DNA of 64,000 nt from Verrucomicrobiota bacterium (GTDB lineage Bacteria > Verrucomicrobiota > Verrucomicrobiia > Verrucomicrobiales > Akkermansiaceae): assembly GCA_004294095.1 (NCBI GenBank), contig RDZR01000025.1, positions 56,706 to 120,705 on the forward strand. Reading direction: 5' to 3'. Each line of letters starts with the position of its first letter. Within the stretch, counting starts at the first letter, position 1. Both the position numbers and the translations under genes were made by a program. The notes beneath the pieces were generated by a model, which was given only the letters and a program-made list of their open reading frames with translations, searched no databases and was not told the DNA's origin. Shown in pieces: positions 14,751 through 64,000 of this stretch.

Positions 14751-17968
<3,218 letters not shown>

Positions 17969-18131: not shown

Positions 18132-18166
18132 CAGCTAAAAGACCAGCGGCCTTGGGTGCCGCAGCA

Positions 18167-18853
18167 TTAACAAAGGCGGCGACGACGCAGAAGACCCAGC
18201 GCGCCGATTGCACCGAGAAGCGCACTCGATGGCTCGGGAATAGCGGTGAGGTCGATAGAGATATCATCGAAGCGTCCATTAATTGTGCTAGGAGCAGCAT
18301 TTCCAGCTCCGTCGAAGGCAAAAAGGCGAAAAGTAACCGATGCACCAGGCACAGTGGAATTGAAAGCTGTGAAAGTGTTATTTTTGAGGGTCCATAAACC
18401 GTTGTTTGCATTGCTGCCGGTGAAGATGTTTGCCGTATAGGCATCCGAGCTCGCTCTTAACGCATAGGACAGAGGGCCTGTTAATGTGCTCCGCATTCCA
18501 AAATCCATGTCCGAAAGAATGAAAGTGAAACCAGAAAAAGGAGTAACGGTAAATTCCAGATATCCGCTTTGACCGACCCCCGTGCCGAGTGGGCCGGTTC
18601 TAAAAGCGTTACCAATGTTATTTGTGCCGCTGGCACCGGTGTAGGTGCTTGGACTTGATGAGTTGATTGGAGTTGCAACTGTTCCGTTGCTGTTACCAAT
18701 GCTCATATCGCTGATCGCAAAATTGACAGGAGTTCCTGAGTCAACAGTGCTATTACCGTCTGTAAAATTCCAAACCATTATTGCAGCATGACTTGAAGCC
18801 GCCATCAGAGCGGAGAAGGCCAAAACGGCCAATGTGGATGATTTTCTTTTCAT
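18167..18853 (-). CDS. PEP-CTERM sorting domain protein
   Basis: MKRKSSTLAVLAFSALMAASSHAA signal peptide; C-terminal IPEPSSALLGAIGALGLLRRRRLC. Confidence 0.85.
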   Translation of the reverse strand: MKRKSSTLAVLAFSALMAASSHAAIMVWNFTDGNSTVDSGTPVNFAISDMSIGNSNGTVATPINSSSPSTYTGASGTNNIGNAFRTGPLGTGVGQSGYLEFTVTPFSGFTFILSDMDFGMRSTLTGPLSYALRASSDAYTANIFTGSNANNGLWTLKNNTFTAFNSTVPGASVTFRLFAFDGAGNAAPSTINGRFDDISIDLTAIPEPSSALLGAIGALGLLRRRRLC

Positions 18854-18913
18854 GATTTTTAAGTCGTGATCTTTTTGTGGAGGCATCCAGTGCAGGCTGC
18901 AATGCCAACGAGA

Positions 18914-19013
18914 CCAGATTATTGTAAAGCACTTGGTATGCCAGTTAGAAGAGGAGACAATTGCGTCACAATGGCTTCTGAAAACCGCCATGCCGAAGCA
19001 CCCAGCTCGTCAT
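18914..19013. repeat. 100-bp repeat upstream of PEP-CTERM gene 1
   Basis: 4 mismatches in 100 bp to 19964-20063. Confidence 0.92.
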
Positions 19014-19137
19014 GCGCGATGCCGCGAAAAGGTTACCCATGGGTTTGTTGATTGCAGTGATAGGCTGAGTGGCGACGATTTTTGGGTGCCGTGATAGGTT
19101 TTATATAAGAGAACGGCGACCGAAGATCGCCACCACC

Positions 19138-19172
19138 ACAAAAAACCGGCGGACTCCGTGGAGTCCGCCGGT
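19138..19172 (-). terminator. Rho-independent terminator downstream of PEP-CTERM gene 2
   Basis: Palindrome accggcggactcc-gt-ggagtccgccggt with a T tract on the minus strand. Confidence 0.8.
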
Positions 19173-19287
19173 CTTGGGATGGTGAAAAACAAAACGAATA
19201 TTGAAAGCCGTGCCTCGGTCTTAGGAAGCAGTAGTCAAAGAGACCTTGGGCGCCAACAATTTAGCGGTGGCCTTGGGTGCCGCAGCA

Positions 19288-19911
19288 TTAACCAAGGCGG
19301 CGACGACGCAGAAGACCCAACAAGCCAAGAGCACCGAGCAGCGCACCGGATGGCTCGGGGATGACTTCTCCGTTGAAAGTGAAATCATTTATGCTGAAAG
19401 TCCCTCCGACCTGAGTAGTTCCCCATCCATAAAAACGAAATTCGATAGGGGTAGAAACACCTTGGTAGCTAGGTGCACCTAGCACTATTGTGGCACCTGC
19501 GGCAGTGGGGGTTCCAATATTTGCTGCGAAAGAATCCACGCTTGATCTGAAAGCAAAGGACGTGGGCCCACTGCCGGATGCTTGTCCTGTATAAACAAAA
19601 TTTTCAAAATTAATCGTAAATCCAGGCGACGGTGTTAATGTGAATGTAAAATATGCCGTAGGATCGAGTGTTGCCGTGTTCCAACTCTCAGCGTTGTAAC
19701 GGTTACCTGCGTTTGCTCCCACAATACCTGCACCTCGGCCGATTCCACTTACGGTGATGTTGGGTATCACTGTTTGACCAGCGGTATAAGGATTGGCAGT
19801 GTTCGGGTTTGTCCCAGTAATGGGATTTGCCCAAAGCTCAGCTGCTTGAGAGGAAGATACGGCCATGACGGCGGAGAAGGCCATAACGGCCAGTGTTGAT
19901 TTTCTTTGCAT
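19288..19911 (-). CDS. PEP-CTERM sorting domain protein
   Basis: MQRKSTLAVMAFSAVMAVSSSQAA signal; C-terminal IPEPSGALLGALGLLGLLRRRRLG. Confidence 0.85.
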   Translation of the reverse strand: MQRKSTLAVMAFSAVMAVSSSQAAELWANPITGTNPNTANPYTAGQTVIPNITVSGIGRGAGIVGANAGNRYNAESWNTATLDPTAYFTFTLTPSPGFTINFENFVYTGQASGSGPTSFAFRSSVDSFAANIGTPTAAGATIVLGAPSYQGVSTPIEFRFYGWGTTQVGGTFSINDFTFNGEVIPEPSGALLGALGLLGLLRRRRLG

Positions 19912-19963
19912 GATGATTAAATGGTGATTTTTTGTATAGGCAGAATCTTGATGGTTGGCGAAT

Positions 19964-20063
19964 CCAGATTATTGTAAAGCACCTTGTGTGCCAATTAGAA
20001 GAGGAGACAATTGCGTCACAATGGCTTCTGAAAACCGCCATGCCGAAGCACCCAGCTCGTCAT
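19964..20063. repeat. 100-bp repeat upstream of PEP-CTERM gene 2
   Basis: 96% identical to 18914-19013. Confidence 0.92.
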
Positions 20064-20298
20064 CCCCATGAAGGTTATGGGGGTGAGGAGAAGGGATTTG
20101 AAACCCCTTTCTTACGCAAAAACATGGAGAAGATCCTTGCTAATCCAAAGGGTTGCAAACCCCTTCTCCATAGGCGTAGCCCTCTCAGTGGTTTGATTGC
20201 CAGTTTCATCCCCTTTCGAGTTGCGGATTTTAATTTCAAAAACCTTGCTTGGTGAATTGCTTGGAGTGGTTAGCGTTTCTCAAGATGAAGCCGTCACG

Positions 20299-21357
20299 AT
20301 GAAATTACACACCTGTGGTTCATGTTCCTCGCCGATTTATTTTGAGAACGATGTCTGCCTTTGTTGTGGCAGCGTGGTGGGCTATGATGCGATTTTAGGC
20401 AAGCTGAGGTCGTATCACCGGGCGGCGAATGGGGATTTGGCGCCGGAGGACGATCGAGATGCTGGCACCTGGGTGTATTGCTCAAATCATGACCGCTACG
20501 GTGTTTGCAATTGGGTGGTGCCGAAGGGAGATCCTACTGGGCTGTGCATCTCATGTAGGCTCAATCGAACGATTCCAGATCTTTCCAATGCGTCAAATCT
20601 CTTAAAGTGGTCAAAAATCGAGTTTGCAAAAAGCCGATTAGTCGCTGCGTTGCTGGAGTATGGTCTGCCGGTGATTTCAAAAAGTGAAGATGCACAGCGT
20701 GGCCTAGCATTTGATTTTTTGGAAAATCCCCCCGGCTCGCAAGTGGATCAGTCCAAACGAGTGCTGACCGGGCATGAAGACGGAGTGATCACTCTGAATA
20801 TTGAGGAGGCAGATGATGCGCTGCGCGAGGCAGCCCGCGAGCAAATGGGCGAGCCGTATCGCACGTTGCTTGGCCATTTCCGCCATGAATCCGGCCATTA
20901 TTACTGGGATTTGTTGATCCGTGACGACGCTGCGCGCTTGCATGCATTCCATCAGCTATTTGGCGATGAGCGAGTGGACTATGCCACCGCACTGCAACAC
21001 CACTATCAAAACGGACCCGGAGACGATTGGCAAGAAAAGCACGTCACGAGTTACGCAGCATCCCACCCATGGGAAGATTGGGCGGAAACGTGGGCGCACT
21101 ATTTCCACATTACCGATACGCTGGAAACAGCCGCCGCTCATGGGCTAAGCGTCGGCAATGAGGCTCATCGATTTTATGTGACGGGAAATCGCAGCATGCC
21201 GATCAAGGAAATTGGCATGGAATGGCACGAAGTCCGCACGCTTCTCAACAACATGAATCGTAGCATGGGCCTGCCAGACGCCTATCCATTCGTGCTTTCA
21301 GATACGATCCTCCAAAAGCTATCATTTGTCTCTGATGTGTGCCACGCAGCAGGTTGA
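20299..21357 (+). CDS. Putative zinc-binding metallopeptidase (COG4307-like)
   Basis: N-terminal CGSCSSPIYFENDVCLCCG zinc ribbon; GHFRHESGHYYWDLL metallopeptidase motif. Confidence 0.82.
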   Translation: MKLHTCGSCSSPIYFENDVCLCCGSVVGYDAILGKLRSYHRAANGDLAPEDDRDAGTWVYCSNHDRYGVCNWVVPKGDPTGLCISCRLNRTIPDLSNASNLLKWSKIEFAKSRLVAALLEYGLPVISKSEDAQRGLAFDFLENPPGSQVDQSKRVLTGHEDGVITLNIEEADDALREAAREQMGEPYRTLLGHFRHESGHYYWDLLIRDDAARLHAFHQLFGDERVDYATALQHHYQNGPGDDWQEKHVTSYAASHPWEDWAETWAHYFHITDTLETAAAHGLSVGNEAHRFYVTGNRSMPIKEIGMEWHEVRTLLNNMNRSMGLPDAYPFVLSDTILQKLSFVSDVCHAAG

Positions 21358-29655: not shown

Positions 29656-30258
29656 GTGTCGTGGCGCACTCAAGGAGCGTGGGCATCTTGCCCACATCTA
29701 TTTGATGCATGGTGGGCAAGATGCCCACGCTCCTTGGATGACAAAGATATTCAATATGGGGCTATGTTAGGAGGAAGCCGATATACTGCGCTTACTTCTT
29801 CTTCTCGGCAATCTGGAGTTACAGCGATTCTCGTCTCGGGAGGTTCCGAGTTTTCGTTTAATGCGAACGTAGGCCCGGCTGGGCTATTAGGCAATCAAGG
29901 CGTTTTCTATTCGTTGTATAGTGTGCCTCTCGCTTCCCGTAATTTCACCAGCTACTCAGGATTCATGTTATCGATTCCCTCGGTGACGGGAGCAGGTATC
30001 GTTGAAGTGCAGCTTGGATCAGCTTCATTTTCGGTTCCGATCGACCAAGCGGGAGCGGTCTTTATCCCCATTAAAGAATCCGAAGTTATTTCTAGCATGC
30101 TAACATCCGTGAGCGAGATCAAGCTTCAGCTTACTGCTGTATCAAACGATTTTTCCGTTTCAATTAATCGTTTTAGTGCTATTCCTGAGCCTTCTACATG
30201 CATGCTAATTGTTGCAAGCATTGGGCTAGGTATGCGACGGTCCCGTAGAAGCCAATAA
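29656..30258 (+). pseudogene. PEP-CTERM protein remnant lacking a signal peptide
   Basis: ORF N-terminus is translated interspersed repeat; C-terminus IPEPSTCMLIVASIGLGMRRSRRSQ is PEP-CTERM-like. Confidence 0.6.
29671..29736. repeat. Inverted pair of interspersed repeat CAAGGAGCGTGGGCATCTTGCCCAC
   Basis: caaggagcgtgggcatcttgcccac at 29671 and its reverse complement at 29712; another copy at 30736 and a degenerate one at 33120. Confidence 0.85.
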
Positions 30259-63404: not shown

Positions 63405-64000
63405 TTAAATCTTTGTCTGACGGCGGCGTGAAAAGATGCCCGCTGTAGAACCAAGAGCTAACAGTAGGGATGAGGAGGGTTCGGGGATTACAGTGATATC
63501 AAAGCTAAAGCCAATAATCTCGTTGAAGGAGGATGTGACGATTCCGTTTGCTCCTTGTCCCATATTGCCGCTGTAGGTAATAGTGTTTCCGGAGGCTGTT
63601 GGCATTTTAACATGCCAGTTTACATCTGCCTGCGCCCAGTCTCCAGCAGGTTGCCCAGATGCTAACCAGTTTAGCGTGCCACCTGAGGCAAACGTGTCAC
63701 CAGTATTCTGGACGAGATTGCCACCTGCATCATTCACTTCAGCCAGACCCGAAAACCCACTCAAAGTCAGGGTATTTGTATTGGGCTGTGTCGCCTGAAC
63801 TGGGGGGATCGATGATCCAAATGCCCCAACTGTTTGAGCCGGCCCCACAAAGCCGAAGAGAGGTGTCGGAACGGCCGCGCGGCCGCTGACATATGAATTA
63901 TTTAAGATGTAGCCAGGGTTAGTGACTGTGGCCGAAAATTGGAGATTAAATGTTAAAACGCCTGGGGTAAGGCCACCTAAAAATAGCTGCATCCGTATGC
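63405..64000 (-). CDS. PEP-CTERM sorting domain protein, 5' end beyond window
   Basis: Frame open to the window edge; C-terminus VIPEPSSSLLLALGSTAGIFSRRRQTKI. Confidence 0.8.
   Translation of the reverse strand, partial: IRMQLFLGGLTPGVLTFNLQFSATVTNPGYILNNSYVSGRAAVPTPLFGFVGPAQTVGAFGSSIPPVQATQPNTNTLTLSGFSGLAEVNDAGGNLVQNTGDTFASGGTLNWLASGQPAGDWAQADVNWHVKMPTASGNTITYSGNMGQGANGIVTSSFNEIIGFSFDITVIPEPSSSLLLALGSTAGIFSRRRQTKI

Follow-up and report, generated by a model that had tools for sequence, protein, structure and literature searches.

How do two neighbouring PEP-CTERM genes come to have near-identical outer edges beside strongly diverged interiors? The question is raised by a locus in the window, by which we mean the whole 64,000-nucleotide stretch analysed here, situated on contig C66 of a draft genome (3.0 Mb, 113 contigs, 97% complete) of an Akkermansiaceae verrucomicrobium. 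Gene A (18167..18853, minus strand; 228 aa; signal peptide at about residues 1-24, a middle domain and IPEPSSALLGAIGALGLLRRRRLC) and gene B (19288..19911, minus strand; 207 aa; IPEPSGALLGALGLLGLLRRRRLG) are arranged head to tail between an enolase gene (16670-17968, plus strand) and an ORF at 20197-21357 (plus strand). As a first-pass annotation of this DNA had proposed, both encode PEP-CTERM proteins, with a signal peptide that is clear by eye (MKRKSSTLAVLAFSALMAASSHA), a middle with many T, S, N and G residues, and a PEP-CTERM tail in which the PEP motif, a hydrophobic stretch and a basic cluster at the extreme end are all present. Using PF07589, A scored 20.9 bits (cut-off 20.7), and B scored 16.6 bits alone in the protein scan and passed in the six-frame genome search, with 20.9 bits when its neighbours in frame were included; with TIGR02595 both score under the cut-off. 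The genome carries one Exosortase_EpsH gene (E 3.3e-47). Since a hairpin resembling an intrinsic terminator lies between B and A (19138..19175, minus strand; CCGGCGGACTCCACGGAGTCCGCCGGTTTTTT), A and B each appear to be transcribed as a separate unit; hairpins with a similar stem (GACCGGCG...CGCCGGT) are found 3' of the related genes of two congeneric genomes discussed below, G112 and G090, and in all these cases the hairpin was read from the sequence. No RNA families were found in the window.

Identity measured along the A/B alignment in 50-site steps showed where the two genes are alike. The upstream blocks (18914..19013 for A and 19964..20063 for B, minus strand) are 96% identical over 100 bp, confirming what had first been reported, and their far end is a run of 69 identical nucleotides (18945-19013), the longest run in the pair, compared to a maximum of 30 in 5,000 shuffles. 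Identity is 98 and 92% in the block and 62% in the 5' UTR, which from the block to the start codon is just 55-63% identical. It is 88% at the start of the signal peptide and 34-64% across the middle, then climbs to 80% in the early tail and 94% in the final patch. This tail patch (18148..18198 in A and 19269..19319 in B, minus strand) spans about 50 nt over the final RRRRL codons, the stop codon and the first 23 nt of the 3' UTR, where the similarity stops; it contains identical runs of 26 and 24 nt, and the shared C-terminal block noted earlier is thus also borne out. Near-identity is therefore limited to the two outermost patches and is not spread over the ends of the genes as a whole. The bases conserved after both stop codons (18144-18166 and 19265-19287) read NAAAPKA in the +1 frame, and the same place in the G112 gene reads KAMTAKAAAA; they possibly represent a conserved element of the 3' UTR, or may be fortuitous. 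The upstream block begins with a 15-codon ORF (MTSWVLRHGGFQKPL), which was considered as a leader peptide and set aside; the A and B copies do not differ there, and it lies upstream of the promoter.

One origin for such a pair is plain tandem duplication, after which the middles diverged fast and purifying selection kept promoter, signal peptide and sorting tail in place, with no recombination involved. We regard this as possible but unlikely. In its favour, the middles are homologous: they had been described as unrelated, but after removal of both ends they align with a BLOSUM62 score of 116, compared to a mean of 47 (SD 8.3) and a maximum of 86 among 2,000 shuffles, are 27% identical and have the motif GP.S[YF]A.R.S.D.[YF].ANI in common, and so belong to one domain family. 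In addition, PEP-CTERM proteins have been described as ranking with the most rapidly evolving protein sets in their genomes (PMC1569441). The phylogeny of the middles, on the other hand, speaks against a simple duplication. For both middles, matches in other species are better than the match to the neighbouring gene. In trees of 22 and 28 domains, the A middle grouped with one domain from a large multidomain protein encoded by G110 (bootstrap 97-100%, identity 39-42%), and in the larger tree the closest neighbours of the B middle were domains of G129 and G157, a placement lacking firm support. A sister relationship of A and B was rejected in both trees (AU p 0.0006 and 0.006), as was monophyly of A, B and the G112 gene (p 0.0002 and 0.001), and a grouping of B with G112 was not rejected (p 0.19); these AU tests lean on model fit, since the family is fast-evolving and most inner branches are weak. 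An AlphaFold model of A built from three sequences (pLDDT 42.6) was too poor for fold comparison, and a search with the middle profile found no relatives of solved structure (best E 0.085). Two further PEP-CTERM genes in the window, at 29656-30258 (plus strand) and about 63420-63488 (minus strand), were not found as relatives of the A and B middles.

The age of the shared edges could be judged from other species. A search of 73 congeneric genomes for the signal peptide type of A and B recovered four genes only: besides A and B, G112 and G090 contribute one each (E 6e-13 or better; next match 0.02). At the start of the signal peptide, A and B are identical at 38 of 42 sites and the G112 and G090 genes at 41 of 45 (p 1.0), and the first 15 codons of B match those of the G112 gene at 39 of 42 sites; the resemblance of the two signal peptides noted earlier is therefore real, but it is not special to the pair, being equalled between species. 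In contrast, the far half of the upstream block is identical at 45 of 46 sites between A and B and at 13 of 46 between the G112 and G090 species (Fisher p 5e-13), and the tail end at 31 of 33 sites between A and B compared to 17 of 33 or fewer between either gene and the other species (Fisher p 2e-4). Among the four genes, only A and B are alike in these two parts. Since the trees reject A and B as sisters and the edges differ in this way across species, the interiors are older and of separate lineages, and the outer edges are young and shared. Selection also holds the promoter core and the signal peptide, since both recur in other species, which agrees with plain duplication; the far half of the block, where A and B are most alike, shows no conservation between species, and where the tails share a residue 15 of 20 codons are identical against an expected fraction of 0.28, neither of which fits plain duplication.

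We therefore favour, as the probable explanation, a mosaic in which old paralogous interiors recently came to share their outer edges by recombination between neighbours. The interiors (5' UTR, signal peptide and middle) would derive from two lineages of one domain family, and the outer edges, that is the 100 bp with promoter and box and the roughly 50 nt with RRRRL codons, stop codon and start of the 3' UTR, would recently have been made alike. Two routes would end in this same pattern: gene conversion could have acted on both edges of a pair of old paralogs, or one gene could have been duplicated and its interior replaced afterwards. Lineage-specific selection acting on the whole 100 bp could, as an argument against the mosaic, keep the identity without recombination. 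The juxtaposition of near-identical and strongly diverged stretches in neighbours resembles concerted evolution or gene conversion of tandem paralogs, but differs from concerted evolution in general in that here it is the outer non-coding edges and the sorting tail that are alike and the interiors that are of separate lineages. Our literature search found no paper combining PEP-CTERM with gene conversion. The pair thus offers a clean natural case of outer-edge homogenisation between diverged sorted-protein genes, a process that would help explain common expression and sorting signals in fast-evolving surface proteins.

Both upstream blocks contain a putative sigma-54 promoter of the type TGGCAY-N6-GTGCT with -24/-12 elements in GG-N10-GC spacing (TGGCATACCAAGTGCT at 18928..18943 for A; TGGCACACAAGGTGCT at 19978..19993 for B, minus strand), and 13 nt upstream of the -24 element a GTGACGCAATTGT box that is a candidate activator site (18957..18969 and 20007..20019, minus strand). 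The same composite, with a consensus box RTGRCGNAAYYGT exactly 13 nt upstream of the sigma-54-like promoter, precedes the sole two other congeneric genes with this signal peptide, where the box reads GTGACGGAATTGT (G112) and ATGGCGAAACCGT (G090) and the 13-nt distance is kept. A sigma-70 reading (TTGGCA...TAATCT) was discarded, as its -35 hexamer is disrupted in copy A and other species have the GG-N10-GC spacing as well. When 84,980 species genomes were scanned with RTGRCGNAAYYGT-N13-TGGCAY-N6-TGCT, four stretches were returned (L154, L155, L156 and L157). L154 is the G112 locus, where, besides the site that contributed to the definition of the pattern, a second one lies 1,366 bp downstream and precedes a further secreted gene whose signal peptide is related; since this second site played no part in defining the pattern, it is the best independent support for the composite. 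The gene behind it (L154:5997-6700) has no PEP-CTERM tail in frame or just beyond and is possibly truncated. None of the sites in L155, L156 and L157 precedes a PEP-CTERM gene, so the composite is not exclusive to such genes; those in L155 and L157 may belong to genuine promoters of other genes, and that in L156 is probably chance. As composites before non-PEP-CTERM genes, the sites at L155:6972-7013 and L157:7217-7258 (both minus strand) hint at a wider regulon in Verrucomicrobiota.

We additionally asked whether the pair belongs to a wider diversification system, since the first-pass annotation had interpreted it as cassette-style, with the ends as a fixed chassis into which different middles are repeatedly swapped. 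This reading, which we consider improbable, draws some support from G090, where the same promoter composite and signal peptide type stand before a middle of another subclass, and from G112, where two neighbouring genes with the composite have unlike products, though the second of these is the gene that lacks the PEP-CTERM tail. Genome searches, from which all genome-wide counts derive, gave a different picture. Further copies of the upstream block, each preceding a PEP-CTERM gene, had been suggested as a check, but the block occurs twice in the whole genome and is absent from 96 other genomes of the family; the tail block is likewise present in two copies. Among the roughly 30 PEP-CTERM genes of the genome, the others depart from A and B in upstream region and tail codons. 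Since the blocks have no further copies and these upstream regions differ, there is no cassette system in the genome, and a general mechanism that keeps ends and swaps middles is not demonstrated; the signal peptide type is confined to four genes across the 73 congeneric genomes, the ends are alike between species at the motif level only, and the genome holds no donor of the A or the B middle. Peptide-pattern searches for the family in the genome and in viral contigs gave no matches. As a control, a second PEP-CTERM tandem pair on contig C95 (L025/L031) has conserved middles with unlike upstream regions and signal peptides; since its pattern is the opposite, homogenised edges are no rule in this genome, and the A/B mosaic is a local two-gene event. 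The annotation had named an absence of further copies, together with simple divergence after one duplication, as the outcome that would count against it; the absence of copies was found, but simple divergence is contradicted by the rejection of A and B as sisters, beside outer edges with 93-98% identity.

The outer limits of similarity are sharp on both sides, as they would be if the shared block belonged to a mobile element or to the boundary of an integron-like cassette. We nevertheless consider this origin very improbable, given that the block has two copies only and none in the 96 other family genomes, that no recombinase-like ORF was noticed between the enolase gene and the gene at 20197, and that precisely one gene lies between the edges, which is what a duplication would give. 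A further proposal is that a genus-level chassis of box, sigma-54 promoter, signal peptide type and sorting tail is kept and spread by recombination while the displayed domain is exchanged. We consider this improbable; if true, it would point to surface-protein variation under signal control.

Under the favoured mosaic, A and B would be separately transcribed from sigma-54-type promoters, and the signal peptide would direct the export of each protein, on whose C-terminus the exosortase of the genome would act, yielding an envelope or matrix protein. Consistent with use of sigma-54, the genome contains 16 sigma-54-like sites, compared to 3 for the reversed pattern, including sites before glnA-like and PII-like genes (identities read from the sequences), and encodes an NtrC-type activator with the GAFTGA loop. 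The box at the 13-nt position is absent from all other sigma-54-like sites of the genome. Against it, no match to rpoN was obtained in the 97%-complete draft assembly, although 11 of 12 congeners sampled have the gene; we read this as a probable gap in the draft, the alternative being true loss.

Finally, we compared the locus with known systems. In proteobacterial PEP-CTERM/exosortase genomes with PrsK-PrsR, a sigma-54 motif and an upstream activator motif precede 99 of 167 PEP-CTERM genes; among the species discussed, Proteobacteria alone share these motifs, and for Verrucomicrobium spinosum no PrsK/R/T is listed (Haft 2006, PMC1569441). The A/B locus resembles that system in its single-gene units, signal peptide, PEP-CTERM tail and long upstream region, in the -24(GG)/-12(GC) elements, which lie about 70 nt before the start there and 55-74 nt here, and in the NtrC-type activators of the genome (PMC1569441). 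It differs in that the proteobacterial activator motif ends in TTTACA and averages 63 nt upstream of the sigma-54 motif, as opposed to RTGRCGNAAYYGT at 13 nt here; that motif is absent from the block, where the sole TTTACA sits at the -12 element. In addition, the best PrsR match scored 406.1 bits, under the TIGR02915 cut-off of 502.6. Since neither the PrsR cut-off nor the activator motif is matched, we do not assign the pair to a Prs-type regulon and regard it merely as working alike. The hexamers of A and B are nearly the same as those of pepA of Aquincola tertiaricarbonis (TGGCAC/CTGCTT as -24/-12), which is RpoN-dependent with a mapped start site (PMC9850573); dependence was tested experimentally in that species, which belongs to another phylum, and is proposed by analogy here. 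Sigma-54 control of PEP-CTERM genes was described in 2006 as a proteobacterial trait. What is new here is a predicted sigma-54 -24/-12-like promoter with a box 13 nt upstream before verrucomicrobial PEP-CTERM genes, a concrete composite open to testing in Verrucomicrobiota, in which both the box and its spacing differ from the proteobacterial ones. A further PEP-CTERM gene of the genome (L018/L056, contig C66:22714) has a box-less, full-consensus sigma-54-like site, TGGCACAGCACTTGCT, 55 nt before its start.
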